Of a stretch of 41,349 nt of DNA, positions 5,915 through 39,222 are shown in pieces. This DNA comes from a virus. Within the stretch, counting starts at the first letter, position 1. Every line of letters starts with the position of its first letter. Both the position numbers and the translations under genes were made by a program. The DNA lies in IMG/VR virus record IMGVR_UViG_3300001473_000110, positions 1 through 41,349 of that record, one strand, 5' to 3'. Under the pieces are notes generated by a model. The model worked only from the letters and a program-made list of their open reading frames with translations. It was not told the origin of the DNA and ran no database searches.

Positions 5915-6447
5915 GCAAACCCAAACCCAAGACGCCGGCCGTCGTCGCCGAGCTGACGCCGTTGTGCGAAGCGCTGTCGGAGGAGCTGGGCCTGCTGAGC
6001 AAGACCGTGTCGGCGACGCAGACCAAGATGCGCAAGGTGCTGTCCGACGCCCGCGCCGGGATCGAGACGAGGACGGAACGGATCAACGCGCTGGAGGAGA
6101 AGATCCGCGCCCTGATCGACGGGAACCGCAGCGCGTTCAAGAAGCCCAAGACGCGTACGCTGGGCGGGATCAGGGTCGGCCTGCGCCGGAAGACGGGCAA
6201 GGTCGTCTACGACTGCGACGACGACACGATGGTCGCGCGGATCCGCGACGCGTTCGGCCGATCCGCCGGTCCGTATCTGGAGACGAAATCGGTACCGGTG
6301 AAGGACGCGCTACGGAATCTGCCGGAAGAGGAGCGGAAGAAGCTGGGCGTGCAAATCGTCGACGACACCGACGAGGTGCAGGTCAAGCCCGCCGAGTCCG
6401 ATGCGCGGAAGCTGGCAGCGGCGCTGCTGGACGGCGGCACGCCGTGA
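5911..6447 (+). CDS. gam: Gam host-nuclease inhibitor, end-binding protein
   Basis: 178 aa, similar in size to Mu Gam (174). It has the Gam organisation: an N-terminal coiled-coil region (residues about 15-70, with TQTKMRKVLSDARAGIETRT and INALEEKIRALID) followed by the beta region around LGGIRVGLRRKTGKVV and the C-terminal PYLETKSVPVKDAL-NLPEEE part. Gam is a Ku-like dimer that threads onto double-stranded ends and shields them from exonucleases such as RecBCD. The ATG at 5911 has a GAAGGAAAGGG ribosome site. It overlaps the following gene by GTGA. Confidence 0.93.
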   Translation: MSKPKPKTPAVVAELTPLCEALSEELGLLSKTVSATQTKMRKVLSDARAGIETRTERINALEEKIRALIDGNRSAFKKPKTRTLGGIRVGLRRKTGKVVYDCDDDTMVARIRDAFGRSAGPYLETKSVPVKDALRNLPEEERKKLGVQIVDDTDEVQVKPAESDARKLAAALLDGGTP

Positions 6448-6647
6448 CGACCGACGCGCGCCTGATGGAAAACATGGCCCTGTCGGCGCAGGCCGTGCTG
6501 GTCGACCCGGGCAACAAGGCTGCCCGGCGGGCGCTGGCCTTCTGCTGCCGGACATGGCGCCAACGTCAGCAGCTTCGGGCGGCGGCCGCGAAAGGGGACG
6601 CGGACCGCGCCGCCGATCCGCGTTTCCGAAAGGACATCGACGGATGA
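6444..6647 (+). CDS. Small early protein, unknown
   Basis: 67 aa starting from a GTG that overlaps the gam stop (GTGA at 6444-6447). An ATG at 6465 is an alternative start. The protein is alanine- and arginine-rich and helical (KAARRALAFCCRTWRQRQQL), with a charged C-terminus. No family recognised. It ends in an ATGA overlap with the MT-A70 methylase, so it lies in the same coupled operon. Composition alone would allow a chance open frame, but the overlaps at both ends favour a real gene. Confidence 0.5.
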   Translation: MTTDARLMENMALSAQAVLVDPGNKAARRALAFCCRTWRQRQQLRAAAAKGDADRAADPRFRKDIDG

Positions 6648-7300
6648 AACTGCCGGCAAACTGGCCCTGGCGCCACCTGAAGATGCTGCACTACCGGCTG
6701 ATCCATATCGATCCGCCCTGGGACTACGAGACACGTTCGGCGGCCGGCCAGGGCCGCAGCGCCAGCCGCCACTACCGCACCATGTCGTTCGAGGAGCTGG
6801 CCGCGCTGACGATCGCCGATCTTGCCGCCCCCGACTGCCTGATCGCCATGTGGGTGACCGATACGCATCTGCTGGAGGGTCTCAAGCTGTTTCAGGCCTG
6901 GGGCATCGACTATTCGACCATCGGGTTCGTTTGGCTGAAAACGAACAAGCGCACGGATCTGCCGCGGTTGCAGCGGGTCGCCGATCTGCTGGCCGCCGGC
7001 GACGTCGAGCGCGCGGCCGAGGTGCTGTTCTTCCTGGGCATGGGGCACTGGACCCGCGCGAATGCGGAGATCGTTTTGCTGGGCAAATACGGCAGTCCGG
7101 TGCGTCTGGAGAAGGACGTGCGCAGCATCATCGTCGCGCCGCTGCGCGATCATTCCCAAAAACCGGACGAGATCTATGCCCGCCTTCGCCGCCTGGCGCC
7201 CGGGCCAGCCTGCGACCTGTTCGGCCGCCTTGAGGACGATGACTTCTGGACCACCTTCGGCGACCAAGCCGGCAAGTATGGAGCACGAACCCATGGATAG
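6644..7300 (+). CDS. MT-A70 family N6-adenine DNA methyltransferase
   Basis: 218 aa. The MT-A70 catalytic motif DPPW is at 23-26 (LIHIDPPWDYE), and SRHYRTMSFEELAAL follows, the usual next block of this family. AMWVTDTHLLEGL and the downstream RANAEIVLLGKYG (about 138-150) match the conserved regions that bind S-adenosylmethionine and close the pocket. The C-terminal REHSxKP-type block is present as RDHSQKPDEIYARLRRLAP. The expected reaction is methylation of adenine N6 in DNA, probably to protect phage DNA from host restriction or to affect regulation. It is encoded early, unlike the late Dam-type and C5 methylases. The start overlaps the preceding stop by ATGA. Confidence 0.9.
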   Translation: MKLPANWPWRHLKMLHYRLIHIDPPWDYETRSAAGQGRSASRHYRTMSFEELAALTIADLAAPDCLIAMWVTDTHLLEGLKLFQAWGIDYSTIGFVWLKTNKRTDLPRLQRVADLLAAGDVERAAEVLFFLGMGHWTRANAEIVLLGKYGSPVRLEKDVRSIIVAPLRDHSQKPDEIYARLRRLAPGPACDLFGRLEDDDFWTTFGDQAGKYGARTHG

Positions 7301-8514: not shown

Positions 8515-8761
8515 AACAGGCTTCTCGGACCTGAAATTCCTGCAGGCGGTCAAGTATCTGCAGCGGCAGGACGAGCAGGTTCACTGGCCGGCCGACGGCC
8601 CGCCGACCATCAACGGCGTGGAGCACAGCGTGCAGGAGGTCGTCGCCTATGCCGAAGAGCTGCGCCAGGCCGGCGCGGAAGGGCCGCTGCCGACCCGGCG
8701 TCCGGGGCGCCCGGCGAAATTCCACCCCCGAAACAAGGAGAACGATCATGACCGGCTTTGA
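8507..8761 (+). CDS. Small early protein with RPGRPAK tail, unknown
   Basis: 84 aa, starting within the last codons of the preceding gene and ending 14 bases inside the second ParB-like gene. The N-terminal half is acidic and helical (LKFLQAVKYLQRQDEQVHWP), the centre has HSVQEVVAYAEELRQAG, and the C-terminus RRPGRPAKFHP resembles an AT-hook-like GRP patch that can bind the DNA minor groove. That resemblance is short and only suggestive. Family unknown. Confidence 0.5.
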   Translation: MSETGFSDLKFLQAVKYLQRQDEQVHWPADGPPTINGVEHSVQEVVAYAEELRQAGAEGPLPTRRPGRPAKFHPRNKENDHDRL

Positions 8762-9575
8762 CCCAAGAGCGGGCCGTCCATCCTTTGCCTGGCTGAACCC
8801 GGAAAGCTGCATTTCCGACGCGCGCTATCAGCGGCCCACGGATGGGAACCGTTCCGCGCGGCTGATCGCCAAGATCGAGCAGGAGTTCAACTGGTCGAAG
8901 TTCGCCGCCGTCGTGGTGACCGATAATGGCGACGGTACGTACGCGGTCCTGGACGGTCAGCATCGGGTCGCGGCCGCCCTCCGGCATCCCAAGGTCTTCG
9001 AGATCCCGGCCCTGATCATGGATACCGAAACGCTCGTGGAGCAGGCCGAGGCCTTTCTGGGCGTGAACCGAGACCGCGTCCTGACCAACAAACCAACCGA
9101 ACACTACGCGCGGCTCGCCGCCCGTGATCCGGACGCGATGGAGATTAACAGGGTTTGCAAGGAGGCCGATGTGGAGATCGCCCGCACAGTGCGGTTGGCC
9201 CAGGATCTGAAACCGAACGAGACCCTGGCGATCGCGTCGATCGGTCAGGCGATCCGCAAGTATGGCAATGAGCCGACGGTCCGCGCGCTGAAGGCGATCC
9301 GCGCCGCCTATCCGGATCGTAAGGGAGAGCTGCGCGCCGGCACGATCAAGGCGACCGCCGAACTGATCTATCTGCACAAGGCGGACATCGACGACGCGCG
9401 CCTGGCGCAAACACTGTCGACCAAGCCGGCGAAAGACCGCGACGAGGCGGCGCGATCGTACAAGGCAAACTTCGGCGGCAGCACTGTGCTGGCGCTGCGC
9501 AAGGCGCTGGAGCGCGACTACAACGGGATCCCTGGCGGCAAGAAGCTGAAGGATCCCGGCGGGAAGGCGAAATGA
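8748..9575 (+). CDS. Second ParB/Srx-domain protein (DUF6551-like)
   Basis: 275 aa with a strong ribosome site (AAGGAG at 8735-8740). The ParB-like region is near the N-terminus: RYQRPTDGNRSARLIAKI, then FAAVVVTDNGDGTYAVLDGQ followed by HRVAAAL, the family nucleotide-binding box. The C-terminal half is helical, with repeated alanine-rich segments. This family is common in phage early regions and is not tied to chromosome partition. It differs clearly from the first ParB-like protein at 939-1730, so the phage has two unrelated members. A role in regulating phage DNA or acting on host DNA is possible, but the activity is unknown. Confidence 0.75.
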   Translation: MTGFDPRAGRPSFAWLNPESCISDARYQRPTDGNRSARLIAKIEQEFNWSKFAAVVVTDNGDGTYAVLDGQHRVAAALRHPKVFEIPALIMDTETLVEQAEAFLGVNRDRVLTNKPTEHYARLAARDPDAMEINRVCKEADVEIARTVRLAQDLKPNETLAIASIGQAIRKYGNEPTVRALKAIRAAYPDRKGELRAGTIKATAELIYLHKADIDDARLAQTLSTKPAKDRDEAARSYKANFGGSTVLALRKALERDYNGIPGGKKLKDPGGKAK

Positions 9576-9910
9576 CGGCGCCATGGCGCCCGGAGGACAT
9601 CATGCTGACACCCTTGGAACACAAGACCCTGCGCGAGACGGTCCGGATTTGTCCGCCGCCCCGCGGGTTCGATCTCAGTGGCTGTAAAAGCCCGGATACG
9701 GCGCGCCGCTTCTGGTTGAAACTGCAAGCCCGAGGATATGCCGAAATCGCGCGCGAGGGCCGCGTCCAGGACGAGACAGTCCAGGGCGAGTTTGTCTTCC
9801 TGACCGAGAAGGGCCGGAAGGCCGCAGCCGAGGAGGCGTCTTATCTGCAGCACGAGGAGGGGCTCACCGATCCCTCCCTCCAATCACACACAGAAGGAAC
9901 AAGCAAATGA
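9572..9910 (+). CDS. Winged-helix-like small protein, unknown
   Basis: 112 aa from the ATG that overlaps the ParB-like stop, or 102 aa from the ATG at 9602, which has a GGAGGAC site in front and may be the true start. The segment ARRFWLKLQARGYAEIAREG, followed by a hairpin and FVFLTEKGRKAAAEE, has the helix-turn-strand pattern of winged-helix DNA-binding proteins. That is a pattern reading, not a family match. It is the last gene of the tightly overlapped early block and overlaps the lipoprotein gene by ATGA. Confidence 0.55.
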   Translation: MTAPWRPEDIMLTPLEHKTLRETVRICPPPRGFDLSGCKSPDTARRFWLKLQARGYAEIAREGRVQDETVQGEFVFLTEKGRKAAAEEASYLQHEEGLTDPSLQSHTEGTSK

Positions 9911-10332
9911 ACCGGACTCTCATTGGATGTGTCGCACTGTTGGCCCTTGCAGCATGTGACGGTCCCGACGACGCGCAGGTCGCTAAACGCAACATGGCAA
10001 AAGCTGCGGATAACTTCGAAATCATGCGGCGCGTTGTCATGTACAACGCAATCCGTGGTGAGAACATCATGGTTTCGGAGGGGCGTTGTTCCGTTGAAGC
10101 CGGTCAACTCCGCACATCTGTAATCTGCAAGATCGGGCCGGATACCTTCATCCGAAACTTCTACGGCAACTCAGACAACACCGTCTATTTCGTAGAGCAA
10201 ATGGACCCGGTGCCGGTCAATGTCTACCACTACCGCCGAACCTTCAAACCGCAAGCTATTCTGCCGGACATCGACTTCCGGGGGAGCGCGTCTGCCGCCG
10301 CCGATGCGTTGACGCCAGACAGCAGCGACTAG
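9907..10332 (+). CDS. Phage lipoprotein (beta-sandwich type)
   Basis: 141 aa with a clear lipoprotein signal: a short basic start, hydrophobic core and lipobox LALAAC, so C17 should be lipidated and the protein anchored at the membrane. The mature part, QVAKRNMAKAADNFEIMRRV followed by VMYNAIRGENIM and a cysteine-containing GRCSVE strand, matches a lipoprotein family often found in phages of alphaproteobacteria, as far as I recall. Lipoproteins expressed by prophages often block superinfection or alter the envelope; that role is inferred here. GAAGGAAC serves as ribosome site. From this gene on, spacing is looser and GC content lower than in the core early operon. Confidence 0.7.
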   Translation: MNRTLIGCVALLALAACDGPDDAQVAKRNMAKAADNFEIMRRVVMYNAIRGENIMVSEGRCSVEAGQLRTSVICKIGPDTFIRNFYGNSDNTVYFVEQMDPVPVNVYHYRRTFKPQAILPDIDFRGSASAAADALTPDSSD

Positions 10333-11476: not shown

Positions 11477-11526
11477 ACCAAGGAGTCCGCGTTCGGTCAT
11501 GGCCCCGTTTACAACCCAATGCCATG

Positions 11527-11565
11527 CGTTCGATAGTTGCGACTTTCAATAGCAACTCGCGAACG
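11527..11565 (+). promoter_or_regulatory. Long stem-loop just upstream of nuclease ribosome site
   Basis: CGTTCG at 11527-11532 and AGTTGC at 11535-11540 are matched in inverse by GCAACT (11552-11557) and CGAACG (11560-11565), giving a 14-base stem with one two-base internal mismatch and an 11-base loop. The stem ends on the first base of the GGAGGA ribosome site (11565-11570) of the nuclease gene. No T-run follows, so it is not an ordinary terminator; control of translation or mRNA stability, or an operator, fits better. Confidence 0.6.
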
Positions 11566-11577
11566 GAGGAGAGTTCG

Positions 11578-12096
11578 ATGCAACAGGTGCGGAATAGAAT
11601 CGGAAGAGTGTTGAGGGATGCGCTGCTGGCTGGCATCGCTGCCGTGGCGATCGCGGCCGCGCCGGCGGCGGCGTCGGACTTCGTCGAGGGCGACGTGATC
11701 GAGGGGATCGGGTACCCGGTCGATGGAGACAGCCTGGATGTAGGCGAAAAGCGGATCCCCGTGCGCTTGTTCGGGATCAGCGCGCCGGAATACGACGCGC
11801 CGCTGGGGCCTTTCGCGACACGCGTCCTACACGAGTTCGCCTACGGCAAGGACTTCCGGTGCATCGTCATCGATGTCGACAAGTACAAGCGGCCGGTGGC
11901 GGAGTGTTTCCGGCGCGGCGGCGATCTGCTGAACACCTACCTGCTGGGCGCCGGCGCGGCTACCGTCTACCGTCGTTTCCTGTTCAAGGACAGGGATGCC
12001 AAGACGGTCGAGGCCTACCTTGCGGCCGAAAAGGCTGCCTGCGCCGAGCGCCGCGGTATCTGGCGCGATCGCCCGGCCGGGATCTGCGGCAACTAA
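11578..12096 (+). CDS. Exported staphylococcal-nuclease-family protein
   Basis: 172 aa with an N-terminal signal peptide (basic start, long Ala-rich hydrophobic stretch, likely cut after AAPAAAS). The mature domain is a thermonuclease fold: DGD at 49-51 (calcium-binding), then RLFGISAPE with R63 and E71 at the spacing of catalytic R35 and E43, and KRPVAEC with R105 for R87. The position of calcium ligand D40 is serine (S68), so metal use may differ. It should cut nucleic acid in the periplasm or outside the cell, for example incoming DNA of rivals or debris at lysis; the role is inferred. I chose the ATG at 11578 for its GGAGGA site; an ATG at 11524 lies inside the stem-loop region. Confidence 0.85.
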   Translation: MQQVRNRIGRVLRDALLAGIAAVAIAAAPAAASDFVEGDVIEGIGYPVDGDSLDVGEKRIPVRLFGISAPEYDAPLGPFATRVLHEFAYGKDFRCIVIDVDKYKRPVAECFRRGGDLLNTYLLGAGAATVYRRFLFKDRDAKTVEAYLAAEKAACAERRGIWRDRPAGICGN

Positions 12097-12099
12097 ACC

Positions 12100-12471
12100 A
12101 TGAACCGCCTCGCCGTCCCCAGCAGCCTGAATCAGCTAATCGATGCCGCCGGCGTCGATGCCGCGCTGACGCTGGTGGCGGCCCGGCGCGGCACCCGATT
12201 CTGGATCCCGAAGAAGGCGGAAGGGTCCGAACTGGCCAAGATCGTCGGCATTGACGATGCGCGCAAAATCGTCGAGGAATTGGCCAACGAGCGTATCGAG
12301 ATTCCGGTGGCCAAGCGGATCTTGAACCGCTGGCTGCGGGAGCGCGGAGCGTCCCAGGAAGCGCGCGCGAACAAGATCGGCGTCTCGCGCCGCACGGTTC
12401 AAAACTGGGACGCGGCCGAGGGCGCCAGGGTTTCAGGCCCGCAGCCCGATCTGTTCGACGCCGCCGGCTGA
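12100..12471 (+). CDS. mor: Mor/C-family transcription activator
   Basis: 123 aa. It shows the Mor pattern: two related dimerisation segments, LIDAAGVDAALTLVAARRGT ending in RFWIPK, and KIVGIDDARKIVEELANERI, followed by a helix-turn-helix near the C-terminus (ASQEARANKIGVSRRTVQNW). In Mu, Mor activates the middle promoter and the related C protein the late promoters by binding dyad sites just upstream of -35. Here only one such gene is visible, right between early and late blocks, so it probably drives the late genes. The 19-bp palindromes at 12502 and 20166 are natural candidates for its sites. The ribosome site is weak. Confidence 0.75.
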   Translation: MNRLAVPSSLNQLIDAAGVDAALTLVAARRGTRFWIPKKAEGSELAKIVGIDDARKIVEELANERIEIPVAKRILNRWLRERGASQEARANKIGVSRRTVQNWDAAEGARVSGPQPDLFDAAG

Positions 12472-12501
12472 CACCATCCCATCACCGACAGCAACCGAAC
12501 C

Positions 12502-12520
12502 GGGCGCAACTGTTGCGCCC
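12502..12520. promoter_or_regulatory. 19-bp perfect palindrome, late-unit operator candidate, copy 1
   Basis: GGGCGCAACTGTTGCGCCC is a perfect dyad around T12511. The same 19 bases, with seven flanking bases also identical (12499-12524 and 20163-20188), occur in front of the second late unit. No T-run follows, so a terminator is unlikely. Position right after mor and before the lysis genes suggests an activator site. No convincing -35/-10 pair is visible downstream, as expected for an activator-dependent promoter. Confidence 0.7.
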
Positions 12521-12577
12521 TGAATCCGCGCGTCAGGATCGATCATCCTGTCCCCACTGATTTGACAGTAAACACTT

Positions 12578-12603
12578 GGGGGCTTTGCCCCCGTCTTCTT
12601 TGG
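12578..12603 (+). terminator. Terminator-like hairpin in leader of first late unit
   Basis: GGGGGC (12578-12583), loop TTT, GCCCCC (12587-12592), then GTCTTCTTT. This is a canonical intrinsic terminator shape with a short mixed T-run. It lies after the palindrome and only 14 bases before the endolysin start, so any transcript begun near the palindrome must pass it. It may end mor transcription, or act as a leader attenuator. Confidence 0.65.
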
Positions 12604-12616
12604 CGGACGACCTGTC

Positions 12617-12997
12617 GTGACGATTTGGAACCCGAACAGCACGCCGAACTTTTCGCAAGCCGAGATGGCTTGCACCTGCGGCCAGTGCGCCGGCCTGTCC
12701 GATATGGACGGACACTTCATGCTGAAGCTGCAGGTCTTGCGGAGTGAGATCGGGCTTCCGTTTCACATGCTCAGTGCCTTCCGGTGTCCGTTGCATCCCA
12801 AGGAACGCGGAAAGTCGCGCCCGGGATCGCATGCCGCCGGTCTCGCTGCGGACATCTTGGCGGGCGGTCCGCTTCAGTACGAGATCATCGCCCGGGCCAG
12901 ACGACTCGGCCTGGTCGGGATCGGGATTGCCAAATCATTCATCCACGTGGACGGCGGTCACCCTTGGGCATACCGGCCGACCGTCTGGACCTACTGA
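12617..12997 (+). CDS. Peptidase M15 family endolysin
   Basis: 126 aa, a compact M15A/VanY-like zinc carboxypeptidase. The SxHxxGxAxD motif is present as SHAAGLAAD with H72 and D79, and the second zinc histidine is in FIHVDGGH (H110, D112). It should cut peptide cross-links in peptidoglycan at lysis. There is no signal peptide, so release needs the holin encoded next. The start is a GTG at 12617 with only a weak ribosome site, close behind the leader hairpin. It is the first gene of the late lysis and packaging unit. Confidence 0.9.
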   Translation: MTIWNPNSTPNFSQAEMACTCGQCAGLSDMDGHFMLKLQVLRSEIGLPFHMLSAFRCPLHPKERGKSRPGSHAAGLAADILAGGPLQYEIIARARRLGLVGIGIAKSFIHVDGGHPWAYRPTVWTY

Positions 12998-13007
12998 CGA
13001 GGAAATC

Positions 13008-13217
13008 ATGGACAAGCTAACTTACCTCCTCTCCGGAGGGTTTTTGAGCGGGAGGCGGACCTATGTGCTGGGCGCGCTAATGGCGGCCCAGGCGGTGGCT
13101 AGCTGGGCGCTGGGCGACACGACCCTGCCGCAGCTGCTGGAACAGCTGCCCGAGATCCTGGGCGGTCTCGGCATCATGACGCTCCGCGCGGGCATTCAGA
13201 AAGGTGCGGCAAAATGA
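13008..13217 (+). CDS. Holin-like small membrane protein
   Basis: 69 aa with one clear membrane segment (RRTYVLGALMAAQAVASWAL) and a second weaker hydrophobic stretch (LPEILGGLGIMTLRAG) ending in a basic tail. Size, position between endolysin and lipoprotein, and the GLGxxTLRAGI ending fit holins of alphaproteobacterial phages. GACGAGGAAATC provides the ribosome site. The stop overlaps the lipoprotein start by ATGA. Holin activity is inferred from context. Confidence 0.7.
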   Translation: MDKLTYLLSGGFLSGRRTYVLGALMAAQAVASWALGDTTLPQLLEQLPEILGGLGIMTLRAGIQKGAAK

Positions 13218-13582
13218 GGGCGCTGATCGCTTCCACTCTCGCCTTGTGTCTGTTGTCAGCCTGCACCGTTGTTGAAGCGGAAACGCCGGCACAGAAGGCC
13301 TTCGCGCTGAGTTCTGAGTACGCCGCCGCGCTGACCGTCGCGGAAGGGTATGAAGCCCTTCCGCGTTGCACCGCCGGCGTCGAGACACCCTGTTCGGATC
13401 CGGACACGGTCGAGCGGATCCGTAAGGCGGACAAGCTGGCCTATGCGGCCGTGAGCGCAGCGCAGAACTTTGTCCGGGATCATCCAGGGGACAAGGCCGG
13501 CATCGTTGGCGCATTGGCCGCCGCGAACCTGGCCCTCTCCGAGTTTCGAGCCGTGCTCAGTGACAAAGTGACAGGAGACTGA
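13214..13582 (+). CDS. Lysis-cassette lipoprotein, possible spanin-like
   Basis: 122 aa with a lipobox (LCLLSAC, lipidated C17). The mature part is helical and acidic (AQKAFALSSEYAAALTVAEG) and has a cysteine pair around RCTAGVETPC, which could form a disulfide in the periplasm. Proteins of this look stand next to endolysin and holin genes in other phages of alphaproteobacteria. An outer-membrane spanin role (as Rz1) is possible, but the sequence is not proline-rich and no inner-membrane Rz partner is obvious; the coiled-coil membrane protein at 14024 could be considered. Coupled by ATGA to the holin-like gene. Confidence 0.65.
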   Translation: MRALIASTLALCLLSACTVVEAETPAQKAFALSSEYAAALTVAEGYEALPRCTAGVETPCSDPDTVERIRKADKLAYAAVSAAQNFVRDHPGDKAGIVGALAAANLALSEFRAVLSDKVTGD

Positions 13583-13584
13583 CC

Positions 13585-13797
13585 ATGCCGCCAATTTTGG
13601 ATTTTGCCTTTAAAGCGCTCAGCTGGGCATTGATTGCAGCACAGCGGGGCACCGAGGTTGTCGAGCTGCTGAGCGAGACAAAGAGCGCCGTCGAACGGAT
13701 GGTGCTGGAGAAGCGAGACCCGACTGCTGAGGAATGGGAGATCCTCAACCAGCGAATCGAGATCCTGCGCAGCAACCTGCACAGCGACGACGCCTAG
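13585..13797 (+). CDS. Small helical protein of lysis region, unknown
   Basis: 70 aa, two bases after the lipoprotein gene, with an AGGAGA site inside the end of that gene. It has a moderately hydrophobic N-terminal helix (LDFAFKALSWALIAAQRGTE) and a charged second helix with EKRDPTAEEWEILNQRIEIL, a motif I have seen in small proteins beside phage lysis genes. It could be membrane-associated. No activity is known. Confidence 0.6.
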   Translation: MPPILDFAFKALSWALIAAQRGTEVVELLSETKSAVERMVLEKRDPTAEEWEILNQRIEILRSNLHSDDA

Positions 13798-13802
13798 CTT
13801 GC

Positions 13803-14027
13803 ATGGATGCGACGGATGAGGCGACGCGGCAGGAGGAACAAGACCGCGCGCGGGCTTTGGCGGGGGTGAAGAAACGGGCGGCGGTTCAAGAGAACGGCCG
13901 CCCGCCTTCGGCACAGAAATCCTGCGCCGGGTGTGGCTGTGAGATTCCACCCCAGCGCCTCGCTGCAATGCCGGGCGCGACGTTGTGCATCGACTGCGCG
14001 GCAGAGAATGAAGGGCGGGCACGATGA
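13803..14027 (+). CDS. TraR/DksA-type C4 zinc-finger protein
   Basis: 74 aa. The C-terminal half is a DksA/TraR zinc finger: CAGCGCEIPPQRLAAMPGAT followed by LCIDC, giving the CxxC-x17-CxxC pattern. The N-terminal half is a single charged helix, as in TraR, without the long coiled coil of DksA. TraR-type proteins enter the RNA polymerase secondary channel and shift promoter choice like DksA plus ppGpp. Mu-like phages often carry one between lysis and head genes. The start at 13803 lies six bases after the previous stop; it overlaps the gp25-like gene by ATGA. Confidence 0.85.
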   Translation: MDATDEATRQEEQDRARALAGVKKRAAVQENGRPPSAQKSCAGCGCEIPPQRLAAMPGATLCIDCAAENEGRAR

Positions 14028-14425
14028 CGGGGGTCGAGTTTATGAAAGCCATCGCCGAGATCTTCGACCTGATCTTCGCCTTCTTCGCGCTGATCCTATC
14101 GATAGCGGCCTGGTTCATCGCGCGGTCGGGCGTCTCGAAGAGAGAGACAGAGGACAAAATTGATACCGTCAAGGCGGAGCTGACTGCCGAGATCGACAAG
14201 ATCGACCAAGACCTCCGGGAGAACCGGGAGAGCATTGTCCGCGTTGAGGAAAGGGTGAATGCCCTGCCGGACACAGAGTACATGGACAAGGTCCATACGC
14301 GGATCTCCGCGGTTAAGACCATTGCCACCGATACCAAAGAGGAGCTGGCCGCGATCGGAGCAACAGTAACGTCGATCGATAAGGCGGTCGGCACCCTCCA
14401 GAAGGTACTGCACAAACATGACTGA
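14024..14425 (+). CDS. Mu gp25-like membrane coiled-coil protein (DUF2730)
   Basis: 133 aa. An N-terminal membrane helix (IFDLIFAFFALILSIAAWFI) is followed by a long coiled coil (KIDTVKAELTAEIDKIDQDL onward to about residue 130). This matches the DUF2730 family that holds Mu gp25. The function is not established; the shape resembles inner-membrane spanins, so a lysis role has been considered for such genes. It lies in the standard order before gp26, gp27 and terminase. The last eight bases overlap the next gene. Confidence 0.8.
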   Translation: MTGVEFMKAIAEIFDLIFAFFALILSIAAWFIARSGVSKRETEDKIDTVKAELTAEIDKIDQDLRENRESIVRVEERVNALPDTEYMDKVHTRISAVKTIATDTKEELAAIGATVTSIDKAVGTLQKVLHKHD

Positions 14426-14723
14426 CCTGAAGACGATCGAGGCGGAAGACCGGCGCCGGACCATTCTGGATCTGTTGGCTGATGACCAGGACCACATGAC
14501 GTCGGTCGCGATGCTCTACCGCGCCATCCCGCACACCAACACCCTCCACAAGAACGTCGCCATCACCACGGTTCGGGACGATGTCCGCTGGCTTGAAAAG
14601 CGGATGCTGGTGACGCTGAAGATCGAGGACGCGGAGATCTACGTCACGCTGACCCAGCGCGGCAAGGAAGTCTCCGAAGGACGCCAAACGGTCCAGGGCG
14701 TGGCGAAGCCGCTGCTCGACTGA
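14418..14723 (+). CDS. Mu gp26-like winged-helix protein (VpaChn25_0724 family)
   Basis: 101 aa with a winged-helix pattern: RRRTILDLLADDQDHMTSVA, then VAITTVRDDVRWLEKRMLVT and a terminal hairpin ending LTQRGKEVSEG. This matches the small phage family of Mu gp26, located between gp25 and gp27. DNA binding is plausible; its part in packaging or late regulation is unknown. Start overlaps the gp25-like gene and the stop shares a base with the next start. Confidence 0.8.
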   Translation: MTDLKTIEAEDRRRTILDLLADDQDHMTSVAMLYRAIPHTNTLHKNVAITTVRDDVRWLEKRMLVTLKIEDAEIYVTLTQRGKEVSEGRQTVQGVAKPLLD

Positions 14724-15304
14724 TGGGCCGCAAGTCATCCATGGATACACTGCCTGACTCGATCAAGAAGCGGCTCGACTTCCTGATCGGCGAAGGTGCG
14801 TTGACCATCGATGTCCTGACCGCGTGGCTGGACGAGCAGGGCCATCCCCGGTCGCGCTCCGCCGTCGGCCGCCACAAGAGGAAGATAGACCGGGTCGCCG
14901 CCCGTCTGCGTCAGTCGCGAGAGATCGTCGAGGCGCTGACCCCGGAGATTGGCGAAGCGGTTTCCCAAGCCAAGCACGGCCGCATGCTGGTGGAGATGCT
15001 GCGCGGTCAGATCTTCGACATCCTCATGGCCCTACAGCCGGATCCGGACGATCCGGATACAGAACCGACGATCGACACAAAAACGATCGCCAACCTGTCC
15101 CGCTCGGTCGCGCAGCTGAGCCGCGCGTTGCGGCTGGACCAGGATTTCGAGAACAAGATCCGCGAACGCGTCACGCAGGAAGCTCGCGAGGCCGCCGCGG
15201 CGGAAGGCGGTAGGGCATTGGCTCAGAAGGGTCTCTCGGCTGAAGAAATCAGATTTTGGCGTGAGGACTTCCTGGGCGTGAGGAAAGAAGACCCCGATGG
15301 GTAA
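14723..15304 (+). CDS. Mu gp27-like small terminase subunit (DUF3486)
   Basis: 193 aa. The N-terminal half has the DUF3486 pattern: a leading MGRKSS, LPDSIKKRLDFLIGEG, TAWLDEQGHPRSRSAVGRHK and a second helical part. The helix-turn-helix-like start should bind phage DNA, and the C-terminal helices oligomerise. By position before the large subunit, it selects phage ends for headful packaging. Overlaps the large terminase gene by eight bases. Confidence 0.87.
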   Translation: MGRKSSMDTLPDSIKKRLDFLIGEGALTIDVLTAWLDEQGHPRSRSAVGRHKRKIDRVAARLRQSREIVEALTPEIGEAVSQAKHGRMLVEMLRGQIFDILMALQPDPDDPDTEPTIDTKTIANLSRSVAQLSRALRLDQDFENKIRERVTQEAREAAAAEGGRALAQKGLSAEEIRFWREDFLGVRKEDPDG

Positions 15305-16964
15305 ACTGATCCGCCAAATCGACCGGGACGAATTGCCTGCGAGCGTCCTGACCATCCCGGAGGATCTAAACCCGCTTTCCTCCGGGATTTTGATGACCCA
15401 CCAGGCTTGCTGGATCGGCGATACGGCGGACCTGAAGGCGTGCCGCAAGGGACGTCGTACCGGGATCACCTGGGCTGAAGCCCATGACGACACGCTGATT
15501 GCCGCGGCGAGCCGAGAGGCCGGCGGCGACAACGTCTTCTATATCGGCGATACGAAAGAAAAGGGGCTGGAGTGGATCGGCTACATCGCCCATTTCGCCA
15601 AGTTTATCGAGGGGCACCGGCCTGAGATCTGGGAGGCCGAGGAAGAGGTAGAGTACGAACAAGACGGAAAGCGCATCGTCGAGAAGTACACGGCCTATGT
15701 CGTGAAGTTTGCGTCCGGGTATCGGTGTGCGGCGTTGGCGAGCCGCCCGGCCGTCATCCGCGGCCTGCAGGGCGTCGTGGTGATTGACGAGGCCGCCTTC
15801 CATGTCGATGTCCGGGGCGTTATCGACGCCTGCAACGCGCTGCTGATTTGGGGCGGGAAGATCCGGATCATCTCTACGCACAAAGGCGACCTGAATCCCT
15901 TCAACGACCTCATTAAGGAAATCGTTGCCGGCGAGACGGACTATTCGCTGCACACCTACTCGTTTGACGATGCCGTCGAGAATGGGCTCTACGAGCGCGT
16001 TTGCCTGGTCAAGGGCGACACGCCTTCCGTTGAAGGTAAGAAGAGTTGGTACCGCAAGATCCGTGGTTCCTACGGCACCCGCAAAGCCGCGATGCGCGAG
16101 GAGCTGGACGTTATCCCACGCGAAGGCGAAGGCCGATACATCTCCCTCACCTTGATCGAAAACTGCATGACGAAGGATTACACGGTTGCGCGTTGGTCGC
16201 CGCCTGAAGAGACCTTCGTCGACTGGCCCCAATCCAAACGCCGGGAAATCATGAAACGCTGGCTCGACCAAGAGCTGCAGCCATTGCTTCGGGAATTCGC
16301 CGAGACTGTCGCGCACCGTGCCCGCGCCTTCGGTGAGGATTTTGCGATGCGCAACGACCGCACCGCGATCGCATTGGGCTACACCGCCGATGACCTGGTT
16401 CGGCATGTCCCGATCATCATCGAGCTATTCGCATGTCCCTACGATCAACAGGAACAGGTCTTGTTTTATCTGGAAGGTTACCTGCGTCCGCTACAGAAGG
16501 GCATCCTGGATGCCAACGGGAATGGGATGGTCCTCGCGCAGAAAGCCCGTCAGAAGTTCGGCGCCGCCCGGATTGAAGAGCTTGTCGCAAACGACAGTTG
16601 GTACCGGGATCACTCGCCACGCTTCCGCGACGCATTTGAGAGCGGCACAATCCGCATTCCCCAGGACCGTGACGTTCGCAACGACATCGCGCTGATGGAA
16701 ACAAAAGACGGTGTTGGGAAGGTTCCGAGAAATATCCGCACCGACGGCACAGACGCCTCGGGCGGCGGCAAGCGGCATGGGGACGCCGCCGTCGCGCTCC
16801 TGAATTTCCACGCGGCGACCTTTGGCGAGATCGTCGCCTACGACGGCTATCAGGGCGTGCCGCGGGACAGCCTGGGCGGCGGTGGCCGCCGGGGAGACTT
16901 CATGCACGCGCCGCCGGACGACGACATCCCCGATGACGACAAGTGGGTGAAAGGGGCCTGGTGA
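15297..16964 (+). CDS. Large terminase subunit, Mu gp28 family
   Basis: 555 aa, as expected for gp28. The ATPase half has a deviant Walker A region CRKGRRTGIT (49-58), as common in this family, and Walker B VVVIDEAAFH (160-169; D164, E165). The coupling motif is IRIISTHKG. The RNase H-like nuclease half includes GEDFAMRNDRTAIALG, ILDANGNG and a C-terminal KRHGDAAVALLNF segment carrying a metal-binding aspartate. It powers DNA translocation into the prohead and makes headful cuts. The gene lies between the small terminase and portal genes. Intact, no anomalies. Confidence 0.95.
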   Translation: MGKLIRQIDRDELPASVLTIPEDLNPLSSGILMTHQACWIGDTADLKACRKGRRTGITWAEAHDDTLIAAASREAGGDNVFYIGDTKEKGLEWIGYIAHFAKFIEGHRPEIWEAEEEVEYEQDGKRIVEKYTAYVVKFASGYRCAALASRPAVIRGLQGVVVIDEAAFHVDVRGVIDACNALLIWGGKIRIISTHKGDLNPFNDLIKEIVAGETDYSLHTYSFDDAVENGLYERVCLVKGDTPSVEGKKSWYRKIRGSYGTRKAAMREELDVIPREGEGRYISLTLIENCMTKDYTVARWSPPEETFVDWPQSKRREIMKRWLDQELQPLLREFAETVAHRARAFGEDFAMRNDRTAIALGYTADDLVRHVPIIIELFACPYDQQEQVLFYLEGYLRPLQKGILDANGNGMVLAQKARQKFGAARIEELVANDSWYRDHSPRFRDAFESGTIRIPQDRDVRNDIALMETKDGVGKVPRNIRTDGTDASGGGKRHGDAAVALLNFHAATFGEIVAYDGYQGVPRDSLGGGGRRGDFMHAPPDDDIPDDDKWVKGAW

Positions 16965-16965
16965 C

Positions 16966-18585
16966 ATGGCGCAGCTGCTCGACCAATTCGGCAATCCGGT
17001 GAGTTCCAAAGATCTGAGGCGCGAGATTGCCGCGCCCAGCCTGACGGGCGTTCGACAGACCATCAGCGAGCATCCGTCGGTCGGCCTCACCCCGGCCCGC
17101 CTGGCGGCGATCCTTCGGCATGCGGAAGACACCTATCCGTCCGAGTACCTGGCCTTGGCCGAGGACATGGAGGAGAAGGAATGGCACTACATGTCGGTGC
17201 TGGGCACCCGCAAGCGCCAGGTCTCCCAGCTGGAGATCACGGTGGAACCGGCGAGCGACAGCGCGGACGATCAGCGCAACGCGGAACTCGTGCAGGAATT
17301 CATCGACCGCGGAACGTTGCAGGATGAGCTGTTCGATATCCTGGATGCGATCGGCAAGGGTTTCTCCGTCACCGAGATCCTGTGGGACATGTCCGAAAGG
17401 GATTGGCGGCCGGTTGAGCTGAGGTGGCGCGATCCGCGCTGGTTCATTTTCGACACGCCCGATCGGGACACGCCGCGGCTGCGGGACGACAGCGGCCAGG
17501 GGATGGACCTGGCGCCCTTCAAATTCATCGTTCACAAGGGTAAGGCGAAGAGCGGCCTGGCGATCCGCGGCGGCCTGGCCCGCGGCGCGTCCTGGGCCTA
17601 CCTCTTCAAAAACTTCAACGTGAAGGCTTGGGTCGAGTTCGCCGAGATCTTCGGCCAGCCCTTGCGGGTGGGTAAGTACGAGCCGGGCGCGTCTTCGAAG
17701 GATCTCAATGTGCTCTTGAACGCGGTCGCCAGCATTGGCCGCGACGCTGCGGCGATCCTGCCCCAGAACATGCTGATCGAGTTCATCGAGGCGCAGAAGG
17801 GCGGCAGCACCGGCGGCGCCGATGTCTATCACAAGCTGGCGCAGTATCTCGACCACCAGATCTCCAAGATGGTGCTGGGACAAACTGCGACGACCGACGC
17901 GATCGCCGGCGGCCATGCGGTCGGTCAGGAGCACAACGATGTGCGCGGCGACATCGAACGCGCCGACGCCAACCAGCTGGAAGCGGTGCTGGCCCGCGAC
18001 ATCGTCCGGCCGCTGATCGATCTGAACCACGGCCCGCAGGAGGCCTATCCGACGGTCCATATCGGCCGGGCGGAAGAAACCGACATCACCAAAATGAGCG
18101 ACGCGCTGGCCAAGCTGGTGCCGATCGGGTTGGAGGTGTCCGTGGCGGAGGTGCGCGGCAAGCTGGGCCTGGAGGAACCGAAGAAGGGCGACAAGATCCT
18201 GGGCGCGCCGCCGGCGGCCGGCGGCCAGGATGAAGACGAGGATCCGCCCGAGCCCCCCGATGACGATCCGGATCATGGGGTGGAAGAGGAAGAAGACGAT
18301 GCGGATCCGCCGGCGCCGCCGCAAACGGCCGCCGCCCGCCGCGTGATGGCGAAGGATGCGGACGACGTCCTTGCCGATCGGCTGGATCAGAGCGCAGCCG
18401 CCGCGATGGGACGGATGATCGACGGCGTTCGCGCCATCGTTGACAAGGCCGAGAGTTTCGAGGAGATCGCCCAGCGCTTGCTGAAGGACAGTCCGGACCT
18501 TTCCGAGGACGGGCTGCAGGAACAGCTTCAGCTGGCCATGACGGTCGCCGAAATGTCCGGCCGGTCGGACATCCTGGACGGCTGA
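16966..18585 (+). CDS. Portal protein, Mu gp29 family (DUF935)
   Basis: 539 aa of the DUF935 portal family. Features include the N-terminal AEDMEEKEWHYMSVLGTRKR, the core RWRDPRWFIFDTPDRDTPRL, GLARGASWAYLFKNFNVKAW and EIFGQPLRVGKY, and the LGQTATTDA segment. The last 110 residues begin with a proline- and acid-rich linker (residues about 410-450) and continue into a helical tail. The portal forms the ring through which DNA enters and leaves the capsid. One base separates it from the terminase stop. Nothing unusual besides the low-complexity linker. Confidence 0.93.
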   Translation: MAQLLDQFGNPVSSKDLRREIAAPSLTGVRQTISEHPSVGLTPARLAAILRHAEDTYPSEYLALAEDMEEKEWHYMSVLGTRKRQVSQLEITVEPASDSADDQRNAELVQEFIDRGTLQDELFDILDAIGKGFSVTEILWDMSERDWRPVELRWRDPRWFIFDTPDRDTPRLRDDSGQGMDLAPFKFIVHKGKAKSGLAIRGGLARGASWAYLFKNFNVKAWVEFAEIFGQPLRVGKYEPGASSKDLNVLLNAVASIGRDAAAILPQNMLIEFIEAQKGGSTGGADVYHKLAQYLDHQISKMVLGQTATTDAIAGGHAVGQEHNDVRGDIERADANQLEAVLARDIVRPLIDLNHGPQEAYPTVHIGRAEETDITKMSDALAKLVPIGLEVSVAEVRGKLGLEEPKKGDKILGAPPAAGGQDEDEDPPEPPDDDPDHGVEEEEDDADPPAPPQTAAARRVMAKDADDVLADRLDQSAAAAMGRMIDGVRAIVDKAESFEEIAQRLLKDSPDLSEDGLQEQLQLAMTVAEMSGRSDILDG

Positions 18586-18588
18586 CCC

Positions 18589-19839
18589 ATGTCGGATGAA
18601 GAACTGGGGCTGCCGTTCCGCGAGGCGATCCGGTTCCTGCGGCAGAAGGTGCGGCTGCCGTCGCGGGCCTGGACCGAATTGCGGGAGTCGGCGCACGCCC
18701 GATCCTTTGTCGTCGCCGGCGCGATCAAGGACCAGCTGCTGGCCGATTTTCAGAACGCCCTGATCGAGGCGCTGGAAGAAGGCAAGACGCTGCAGGAATT
18801 CCGCAAGGACTTCGATCGGATCGTCGCCGCGCACGGCTGGAGCTATCGCGGCCGCCGCGGCTGGCGATCGGGCGTGATCTACAACACGAACATGCGCATG
18901 GCCCGCGCGGCCGGACGCTGGGCGCAGATCCAACAGGTGAAGGCCGCGCGCCCCTACATCCGATACTTCGCGGTGTTGGATTCGCGGACCCGGCCGCTGC
19001 ACCGGGATTGGCACGACGTCGTTCTGCCGGTCGACCATCCGTTCTGGAAAACGCACCTGCCGCCGAACGGTTGGAACTGCCGCTGCACCATCCAGTCGCT
19101 GTCGGAACGCGATCTGAAACGCCGGAAGCTAAAGGTCACCGACCCGGCGCCGGCGGTTCAGACCGAAGCGCGCCAGGTCCGAACGCCGGAAGGGTTTGAG
19201 AACTGGCCGACGCCCAAAGGGATCGATACCGGCTTCGGCTACAATGTCGGACATGCCTGGCTGCATGGCGCCGTACCTCCGCCGCTTCAGAGCCCGCTGC
19301 CGCAGGCGCAAGGCATCAACCCGCCCTTGCCGCGCGACCTGGACCTGACGATCACGCCGACGCCGGTCGATCCGGATCAGCTGCTGCCCGACGGTCTGTC
19401 GGACGAGGAGTATGTGAACGCCTTCCTGGGCGAGTTCCGCGCCGGCATCGGTCGGCCGCGGGCGGTGCGCGATCGCGCGGGCCACCTGGTCGCGGTCGGC
19501 GAGGATTTGTTCATCGACCGCCGGCGCTCGGCCGAGGCGGGCGAGACGGTCTACAAGGTCCGCAAGGGCGGCCGCGAACGCTACACGCTGCTGATGGCCG
19601 ATGCGCTGAAAGAGCCGGATGAGATCTGGCTGCACTGGCGCCGGGATCCGAACACCGGGCGCTACGCTCTCTCGCGGCGCTACCTCAAGGCCTGGGATCT
19701 TCCGGGCCGCGGCGGGGCCTACACCTCGTTCACCTGGACCGATGACGGCTGGGTCGGCGTCACCAGTTTCCCGCCCGACCGGGAGAGCTATCTGCTGTCC
19801 CAGCGCGAAGGCGCGCTGCTGTACAAACGGAAATCCTGA
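18589..19839 (+). CDS. F-like minor head protein with C-terminal PBECR2-type nuclease domain
   Basis: 416 aa. Residues about 1-190 form the Mu F/SPP1 gp7 head morphogenesis domain, with the signature YIRYFAVLDSRTRPLHRDWH and LPPNGWNCRCTIQSLSERDL. The last ~118 residues (RAGHLVAVGEDLFIDRRRSA onward, with YTLLMADALKEPDEIWLHWR and a SFTWTDDGWVGVTSF strand) match the PBECR2 domain, a barnase/EndoU/colicin/RelE-like RNase fold attached to phage head proteins. Such a domain is thought to be injected with DNA. The F part helps head assembly next to the portal. Last gene of the first late unit. Confidence 0.88.
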   Translation: MSDEELGLPFREAIRFLRQKVRLPSRAWTELRESAHARSFVVAGAIKDQLLADFQNALIEALEEGKTLQEFRKDFDRIVAAHGWSYRGRRGWRSGVIYNTNMRMARAAGRWAQIQQVKAARPYIRYFAVLDSRTRPLHRDWHDVVLPVDHPFWKTHLPPNGWNCRCTIQSLSERDLKRRKLKVTDPAPAVQTEARQVRTPEGFENWPTPKGIDTGFGYNVGHAWLHGAVPPPLQSPLPQAQGINPPLPRDLDLTITPTPVDPDQLLPDGLSDEEYVNAFLGEFRAGIGRPRAVRDRAGHLVAVGEDLFIDRRRSAEAGETVYKVRKGGRERYTLLMADALKEPDEIWLHWRRDPNTGRYALSRRYLKAWDLPGRGGAYTSFTWTDDGWVGVTSFPPDRESYLLSQREGALLYKRKS

Positions 19840-19864
19840 TCCCGGTACCGGAAGGCCAAAAGTA

Positions 19865-19892
19865 AAGGCGGCCAGGAACGCCCTGCCGCCTT
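19865..19892 (+). terminator. Strong hairpin after F gene, probable terminator of first late unit
   Basis: AAGGCGG (19865-19871) pairs with CCGCCTT (19886-19892), and inside it CAGG (19873-19876) pairs with CCTG (19882-19885), leaving one bulged C and a five-base loop. It starts 26 bases after the F stop. Only two T residues end the stem, so efficient intrinsic termination is uncertain. Confidence 0.5.
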
Positions 19893-20165
19893 GTGGCCGG
19901 GTTTCGCGATCCCGGCGTCGGGTCAACCCAGCAAGCGGAATATAATCGATGCGGGCCGCGTTTTCCAGATCGTCGAGTCCGTGCGCGGACAGCGCCGCTG
20001 GCGGCCTCAAGGCCCTGTCCCCCCAAAAAAACCGGTCCCACGCGTCTTTGGGCGTCTTAGAGGCGATTCCAGGCGATCTAATCCGCTTTTCCGCAAGCCT
20101 GTTGCGCCGTTCGCTTAACGTCGTGTAGGACTCGATGGCCGATGGCCCACCGCGTCATCCGCACC

Positions 20166-20184
20166 GGGCGCAACTGTTGCGCCC
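20166..20184. promoter_or_regulatory. 19-bp perfect palindrome, late-unit operator candidate, copy 2
   Basis: The same GGGCGCAACTGTTGCGCCC as at 12502-12520, again in a noncoding gap and again ahead of a large late unit. A poor -10-like CATAGG (20206-20211) lies about 33 bases from the dyad centre, which is the spacing expected if an activator dimer covers the -35 region. This fit is suggestive only. Confidence 0.7.
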
Positions 20185-20224
20185 TGAAACCATCCCCCCG
20201 AACCTCATAGGTTGGTCCCGATCA

Positions 20225-20250
20225 CCGCCGCATCGGCGGTTCGTTTGATT
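20225..20250 (+). terminator. Terminator-like hairpin in leader of second late unit
   Basis: CCGCCG (20225-20230), loop CAT, CGGCGG (20234-20239), then TTCGTTTGATT. It has the same three-base loop, six-pair GC stem and T-rich 3' side as the hairpin at 12578, and lies 40 bases after palindrome copy 2 and 20 bases before the protease start. Confidence 0.6.
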
Positions 20251-20259
20251 GAGGACCGA

Positions 20260-21297
20260 ATGCCTTACCTGGCGCACGCCGCAATGCAGATCGCGCTCTC
20301 TTCCGGGGACACGCCGCCGGAATGGATCCAGCTGTTTCCGCTGGGCCGCGTCGGCGCGAAGGATGGTCGTGGGCCGTGGGTCATCGATGACCCGCAGGCC
20401 ATCATTGAGGCGAGCCAGGCCGATCAGCGTCCGCTGCCTATCGACTACGACCACGCCATCGACCTTGGGGCGAAGTCCGGCCAACCCGGCATCGCAGCCG
20501 GTTGGATCGTCGAACTGCAGGCGCGGGACACCGGCATCTGGGGGCGGGTCGAGTGGACGGAGAAAGGCGGCGCAACAATCACCGCCAAGGAATACCGCTT
20601 CGTCTCGCCGACCTTCACGTTGGACGACAAGAAGACCCATGTCGCCCGGATCATGCGTGCGGCCCTTACGAACAATCCCGCCATCCAGGAGCTGCCGGCG
20701 CTGGCCCGCTCCCAATCAGAGGAGGATCCTGTGGACCTTGAACAATTCCTGGCCGCCTTGGCCAAGGCTCTCGGCGTGGAGAACCCCACGACCGAGTCGA
20801 TGCTGACCGCCGTTACCGCGATGGCCAGCGACCGTTCGGCGGTTCGCGCGGCGATCGTCGCGAGCGCGTTGTCGGTTGAGGACGGGTTCGAGCCCGACGA
20901 GATCGGCGCCGCCGTCACGGCCGTGTGTCAGGCACCGGCCGACGCCACGGCCGCGGCTGCCATTCAGGGACTGCAGACCGAGGTAAATGCCCTGAAGGCG
21001 AACGCGGCCAAGGAAAAGGCCGAGGCGGCCGTCGCGGCCGCCATGAAGGACGGCAAGATCGCGCCGGCCACCAGGGAGCACTTCCTGACCATGGCGACCA
21101 ACGATCCGGACGGGTTCGCCGCCTTCGTGAAGGCCCAGCCGGTCATCGTGCAGCCGGGCACGACGGCGGCAACGGACCCGCCGCCGGCGGACGGCAGTCT
21201 GACGGAACTGGAACTGGCAACCTGTCGGGCAACCGGGATCTCCGTGGAAGACTTCAAGAAAGCCCGCAAGGCTGAAATCGAAAAGGGGATCTTCTAA
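20260..21297 (+). CDS. I: Mu I-like prohead protease with scaffold region
   Basis: 345 aa. Residues about 1-150 are the Mu gpI protease domain: WIQLFPLGRV at the start, then LPIDYDHAIDLG, where the histidine-containing block is characteristic of the family, and ITAKEYRFVSPTFTLDDKKT, holding the conserved serine region. The C-terminal 190 residues are a helical scaffold with a coiled coil (ALKANAAKEKAEAAVAAAMK). The protease matures the prohead and removes scaffold. I chose the ATG at 20260 with a GAGGA site; an upstream TTG at 20212 would place the start before the leader hairpin. Stop overlaps the next ATG. Confidence 0.9.
   Translation: MPYLAHAAMQIALSSGDTPPEWIQLFPLGRVGAKDGRGPWVIDDPQAIIEASQADQRPLPIDYDHAIDLGAKSGQPGIAAGWIVELQARDTGIWGRVEWTEKGGATITAKEYRFVSPTFTLDDKKTHVARIMRAALTNNPAIQELPALARSQSEEDPVDLEQFLAALAKALGVENPTTESMLTAVTAMASDRSAVRAAIVASALSVEDGFEPDEIGAAVTAVCQAPADATAAAAIQGLQTEVNALKANAAKEKAEAAVAAAMKDGKIAPATREHFLTMATNDPDGFAAFVKAQPVIVQPGTTAATDPPPADGSLTELELATCRATGISVEDFKKARKAEIEKGIF
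20731..21297 (+). CDS. Nested scaffold protein (Z-like), internal start in protease gene
   Basis: A GTG at 20731, in frame with the protease gene (157 codons downstream of its start), is preceded by an excellent AGAGGAGG ribosome site (20718-20725). It would make a 188-aa protein consisting only of the C-terminal scaffold region, starting VDLEQFLAALAKALG. Mu makes its scaffold Z from the 3' part of I, and lambda makes Nu3 inside C in the same way. The boundary falls just after the protease domain, as expected. Good sequence support; expression not shown. Confidence 0.75.
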   Translation: MDLEQFLAALAKALGVENPTTESMLTAVTAMASDRSAVRAAIVASALSVEDGFEPDEIGAAVTAVCQAPADATAAAAIQGLQTEVNALKANAAKEKAEAAVAAAMKDGKIAPATREHFLTMATNDPDGFAAFVKAQPVIVQPGTTAATDPPPADGSLTELELATCRATGISVEDFKKARKAEIEKGIF

Positions 21298-38930: not shown

Positions 38931-39044
38931 CCCCGCCAACCGCGGGGGCCGGGGTGCGCCAACACCCCGAACCGACCGGCTGCCACCGGTCACTTAGGAT
39001 GGCGTACGATCCGCCACCGGTCGCCCCGCTGCCTGACGCCAGGC
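38931..39044 (+). other. Cluster of four hairpins between structural genes and com
   Basis: The stop of the adaptor gene is followed directly by CCCCGC/GCGGGG (38931-38947), then CGGGGTG/CACCCCG (38950-38969), GACCGG/CCGGTC (38974-38991) and GCCTG/CAGGC (39031-39044). None has a T-run, so intrinsic termination is not assured. The cluster separates the structural genes from the com-methylase pair and may end or process the long late mRNA. No gene is visible in these 139 bases. Confidence 0.5.
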
Positions 39045-39069
39045 ACGGAAATCGTGAGGGTCTTCGTCT

Positions 39070-39222
39070 GTGGAGTCGACTCGGAAAAAGGACGTCCGCT
39101 GCGGCCGCTGCGGTAAATTACTTGCGCGCTGGAGCGGCAAGGAACTAGAAATCAAATGTCCCCGCTGCGGGACGCTCAATCACGTGAGAGCCGAGAGCAC
39201 CACGCAAGAGGGCCAGTCCTGA
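39070..39222 (+). CDS. com: Com-like zinc-finger translational regulator
   Basis: 50 aa from a GTG at 39070 with GAGGG nine bases upstream; a TGA at 39055 blocks any longer frame. It matches Mu Com: two CxxC knuckles, VRCGRCGKLLARW and IKCPRCGTLNHVRAE, with the diagnostic LEIKCPRCGTLNH. Mu Com binds the mom mRNA and opens a stem that hides the mom start. Here the next gene is a D12-class adenine methylase rather than mom, an arrangement also seen in other Mu-like prophages. Below the usual size cut-off for gene finding, so easy to miss. Confidence 0.9.
   Translation: MESTRKKDVRCGRCGKLLARWSGKELEIKCPRCGTLNHVRAESTTQEGQS

Follow-up and report, generated by a model that had tools for sequence, protein, structure and literature searches.

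A repeated palindrome as the predicted operator of a Mor/C-family late activator in a Mu-like phage

Mu late promoters and the corresponding dyads in the window

In the annotated genome of phage Mu (AF083977; PMC4461284) gene C is followed by Plys and lysis and, further downstream, by F, G, PI and I, and the window analysed here, the whole 41,349-base stretch of a virus record, has the same order. Both have a C-type gene directly 5′ of Plys and a second site ahead of I, and in both the late promoters (predicted ones in the window) combine an activator site upstream of –35 with poor –10 and –35 elements. Mu differs from the window in its four C promoters, its separate Mor and an unrelated operator sequence, the window dyad being absent from the Mu Plys and PI regions. 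At the Mu promoter Pm the dyad bound by Mor extends from –51 to –36 (centre –43.5), and the promoter lacks a –35 element (PMC4287176, PMC4390567); Mor drives middle genes, whereas the sites in the window front late genes.

When the complete record was scanned, the 19-mer GGGCGCAACTGTTGCGCCC was found as exact copies at 12502–12520 and 20166–20184 only, its arms matching perfectly around a single unpaired base at the centre, and a third site was absent even with 3 mismatches (0.05 expected from dinucleotide shuffles). The identity around the 19-mer covers 26 bases, ACCGGGCGCAACTGTTGCGCCCTGAA, at 12499–12524 and 20163–20188. This bears out a preliminary description of the sequence, which had reported a pair of 19-bp palindromes with 26 identical bases each and no third copy. 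It had further placed them in the only two large gaps of the late region; two late-region gaps do each hold a copy, but they are not the only ones, as a further gap at ∼38931–39155 is without the dyad.

Copy 1, the putative operator of the predicted Plys, lies 30 bp past the stop of a plus-strand gene (12100–12471) for a 123-aa Mor/C-like late activator (phrog_836 ‘late transcriptional activator’, E 1.3e-20), and ahead of the first gene 3′ of this promoter, a plus-strand M15-type endolysin gene (12617–12997; PF08291 2.9e-10, phrog_894). Copy 2, the putative operator of the predicted PI, has no strand assigned, like copy 1, and lies between the F/PBECR2 gene, which ends at 19839, and the first gene 3′ of the predicted PI, which encodes a Mu I-like head protease on the plus strand (20260–21297; PF10123 2.7e-72, a match obtained on the longer frame from 20212, the ATG at 20260 having been picked by eye). 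A second Mor/C-like gene gave no match below E 0.75 in the window, and because one Mor-family gene is found here, compared with Mor and C in Mu, the regulatory cascade may have one step fewer.

Several neighbouring genes were also recorded. The F-like protein (18589–19839) carries a PBECR2 nuclease-like domain at its C-terminal end (PF18810, 1.4e-28), and the gene immediately 5′ of the mor-like gene (11524–12096) encodes a protein that resembles Staphylococcal nuclease and probably has a signal peptide. The early/middle region of this transposable phage includes genes for a ParB-like protein (8649–9575, phrog_1033) and a VG64/RDF-like protein (9907–10332), and an MT-A70-type methyltransferase domain lies in the early region (6401–7300).

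The same dyad and a fixed hexamer distance in relatives

The dyad, written as GGGCGCAA-N2/3-TTGCGCCC with a half-site spacer of 2 or 3, is common to 11 other Mu-like phages or prophages. Nine of the 11 have both sites, one 3′ of mor and one between F and I (L004, L125, L126, L127, L131, L132, L133, L136 and the L137/L180 genome, in which the second site of L137 sits in L180), and a single site was found in L003 and L144. An exact scan of viral contigs returned the full 19-mer in one further contig, L003, where it again lies between F and I. The core GGCGCAANNNTTGCGCC was also considered as a diagnostic; it occurs in at least 119 stretches of the viral contigs, and because most of these have no window-like genes nearby and are probably chance matches, it is not diagnostic alone.

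The nearest relatives of the Mor-like protein (L004/L005) are 59% identical to it and have GGCGCAACGCTTGCGCC immediately 3′ of their gene, and family searches added ten more activators that form one clade, 48–58% identical to the window protein. The dyad lies directly 3′ of the mor-like gene in 10/10 of these clade phages, with a second copy between F and I in 9/10; neither F nor I could be recognised in the remaining one, L144/L179. Named hosts of the same-dyad relatives are Thalassospira, Magnetospira and a Rhodospirillales MAG. Their prophages (L135–L138) encode Mor-like proteins 47–54% identical to that of the window and carry the same dyad at both promoters, differing in a half-site spacer of 2 or 3 and in occasional half-site substitutions. 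The papers found contain no description of the L135–L138 dyads, nor was a paper on this operator found in a search that reached a minority of subscription journals.

Alignment of 21 sites shows a –10-like hexamer, xAxxxT, at positions 24–29 past the dyad end in every one of them, the next best offset giving 6/21. Further fixed bases past the dyad are a T at +1 (20/21) and an A at +3 (21/21), and a G stands straight after the hexamer at 16 of the 21 sites; a G(T/A)CCC motif at +39 from the dyad centre, spotted by hand, failed past the first four sites. The hexamer was placed at –12 to –7 by assumption, and with the hexamer 24 nt past the dyad, the dyad would therefore extend from about –54 to –36, which is where Mu Mor binds Pm. 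The two arrangements share a dyad end at –36, a dyad in the place of the –35 element and a –10 element only, with centres at –43.5 in Mu and about –45 here. They differ in that the Mu Mor site consists of a pair of 5-bp repeats separated by 6 bp, whereas the arms in the window are 8–9 bp long with 2–3 bp between them.

At the fixed offset the window has the plus-strand hexamers CATCCT for Plys (12544–12549) and TAGGTT for PI (20208–20213), with predicted starts at ∼12556 and ∼20220. Both match TATAAT poorly, and a search for ordinary sigma-70 promoters in the region gave one match, about the chance number. When dyad and hexamer were combined into one score, the window and four relatives each had two sites per phage, scoring 19–20 of 20, compared with ≤15 elsewhere on the plus strand and ≤16 in shuffled windows; the same score revealed no third promoter over background in the window. 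A short inverted repeat, CAGGAT-cgatc-ATCCTG (12534–12550), overlaps the Plys hexamer and is absent at copy 2.

As RNA the dyad itself folds into 8 bp with a 3-nt loop (z –4.0), and it might thus be a terminator, attenuator or processing signal that ends the mor and F transcripts. We consider this highly improbable: the dyad has no T-run after it and is missing from the terminator scan list, its relatives include 2-nt centre gaps, and such a hairpin leaves the invariant –10-like hexamer 24 nt on unexplained. Each predicted late leader also contains a separate plus-strand hairpin ahead of the first start codon, at 12577–12593 for Plys, where TCTTCTTT follows it, and at 20224–20240 for PI. These hairpins are GC-rich and some are T-rich-tailed, similar ones occur in L125 and L127, and they might either stabilise the leader or act as weak terminators.

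More distant alphaproteobacterial Mor-like genes have other dyads 3′ of the gene, for example CGCCCCTGACAGTTGTCAGGGGCG, CCCGGACAGTGTCCG and TTCCTGAAACACTTCAGGAA, and in several of these relatives a near-identical dyad is also found ahead of I. In a blind test covering 47 distant alphaproteobacterial loci the single best dyad 3′ of each gene was chosen with the promoter ignored, and 16 of the 26 top dyads had an xAxxxT hexamer 31.5–33 nt from the dyad centre, compared with 0–3 in windows of similar width at distant offsets. The 31 failures among the 47 loci comprise 21 without a dyad above threshold and 10 with a dyad and no hexamer. In 7/7 further I-side dyads, one of them from Alteromonadaceae phage B23, the hexamer lies 32–33 nt from the centre. 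The 30 best phylum-wide phrog_836 hits showed as a rule no comparable dyad plus hexamer 3′ of the gene, and because of this the geometry rule is proposed for the alphaproteobacterial branch and Alteromonadaceae phage B23 only. Across these relatives the comparison shows that the sequence of the predicted site varies along with the activator and that its distance to the putative promoter is constant. Proteobacterial genomes with 4–5 Mor-like genes each were also seen (G725, G754, G775 and G839 among them).

The Mor-like protein and its predicted operator

Mu C matches phrog_836 as well (2.1e-11), and the window protein has remote sequence similarity only to Mu C. The Pfam Mor family (PF08765) is matched by 5/9 clade members at E<=1 (best 4.9e-4), the window protein being unmatched, and a sequence search of the PDB for Mor gave nothing significant. 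An AlphaFold2 monomer model of the window protein (pLDDT 80) has a C-terminal HTH, and a PDB fold search with it returned no significant match to Mor. Membership in the family is supported by sequence through phrog_836, and a Mor/C-like mode of working is strongly supported by the comparisons.

Mor protein identity correlates with half-site similarity (Mantel rho 0.47, 0/5000 permutations), also without the window’s clade (rho 0.52), and two mosaic phages separate the activator from the remaining late genes. L131 has a Mor 51% identical to that of the window and the same dyad, its terminase is just 24% identical and matches to portal, F and I are undetectable; L165 has a terminase 65% and an F 50% identical, yet a distant Mor and another dyad. 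In these comparisons the predicted operator tracks the Mor gene and not terminase, portal, F or I. Together, co-variation and mosaic comparison support the earlier proposal that the Mor-like protein is the probable binder.

These data also bear on whether another phage or host protein uses the dyad, as parS for the ParB-like protein (8649–9575) or as a packaging or gyrase site. The ParB-like gene (phrog_1033) is indeed present in the window, and the Mu gyrase cut site, between G and I, falls in the equivalent interval. However, a ParB relative went undetected in the 20-kb loci L126, L131, L132 and L133, all of which have both sites, the operator does not track terminase, and a gyrase site would not be expected to recur ahead of lys, so that we give this explanation very little credence. 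It is equally hard to believe that the Mor-like protein binds the dyad as a repressor or for autoregulation, for although copy 1 is close 3′ of the mor gene, the dyad follows that gene and precedes the –10, which is the position that the activator site has at Mu Pm, and copy 2 is 7.7 kb distant.

We therefore consider it very probable that the phage’s single Mor/C-family late activator uses both palindromes as operators, at two activator-dependent late promoters. The earlier suggestion of a late-activator site is supported by the pair of sites in every phage in which both regions could be recognised, by the hexamer at 21/21 sites and by the positions of Mu Plys and PI. We infer that a dimer of the Mor-like protein would bind each dyad, which would stand in for the –35 element at about –54 to –36, and that the bound dimer would contact host sigma-70-type RNA polymerase and recruit or activate it at the weak –10. 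Transcription late in infection would then yield one transcript from ∼12556 covering lysis, packaging, portal and F, and a second from ∼20220 covering I, head and tail. The geometry matches that of Mu, but the sequence of the site and its half-site spacing do not, and on this basis the comparison also favours the proposed new activator-operator pair, and our best reading is that the operator specificity of this Mor/C-type regulator is new.

A candidate recognition residue and C-terminal motif

The predicted recognition helix contains RRTVQNW (residues 97–103, plus strand 12388–12408; AlphaFold2 helix 97–109), with the codon of Q101 at 12400–12402. Among 28 matched activator/operator pairs, Q at residue 101 goes with TTGCG or TTACG in 11/11, an aromatic residue with TTCA in 5/5, E with TGTCG in 5/5 and R, K or S with TGTCA/C in 6/6 (Fisher p 0.002 within the TGTC class), and a single R is paired with a TTCCG operator. 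This code is a hypothesis at this stage, as it was derived from the very pairs that it sorts and as relatedness makes the sequences non-independent.

Middle and late transcription of Mu depends on replication, and T4 late transcription employs T4’s own sliding clamp. The window protein ends in QPDLFDAAG, in a tail with a pLDDT of ∼50 in the AlphaFold2 model, and family tails together with a published consensus mark QPDLF (residues 115–119, plus strand 12442–12456) as beta-clamp-binding-like. That consensus is QL(S/D)LF, and Pol III alpha carries QADMF (PMC11139829; PMC4549789); QPDLF fits such a motif in a flexible tail, its proline at position 2 not being preferred. Motifs in the tails of relatives are QADLF, QTDLF, QSDLF, QLSLF and QADMF, QxDLF/QLSLF-like tails being present in L004, L125–L133, L185 and L222–L224. 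Mu C carries QPDLF at its C-terminal end plus QHDLF at its N terminus, and Mu Mor ends in QPSLL. The strict motif is found in 25/89 family tails, compared with a shuffle mean of 0.14, and in 21/3150 control tails of open frames, of which ∼16 of 21 are Mor family members. The phylum-wide search also returned many Mor-like relatives that stop right after the HTH without a C-terminal tail. No paper linking Mor/C to the sliding clamp was found in the same partial coverage of subscription journals.

As a tentative and rather doubtful joint proposal, the C-terminal QxDLF/QLSLF of Mor/C activators might bind the host beta sliding clamp, so that late promoters would work mainly on replicating phage DNA, as in T4 with its own clamp, and one recognition-helix residue (Q, E, R/K/S or aromatic) might select the operator class (TTGCG, TGTCG, TGTCA/C or TTCA, respectively). 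The tail motif could in this way couple late transcription to replication and, if clamp binding is true, this would be such a mechanism outside T4. The 28 matched pairs suffice for testing a recognition code of the Mor/C-type family. For Mu-like phages of the branch in which the geometry is seen, the comparison allows late promoters to be read from sequence by a rule, namely a dyad 3′ of the mor-like gene that is repeated ahead of I, with the –10 hexamer 32–33 nt from the dyad centre.
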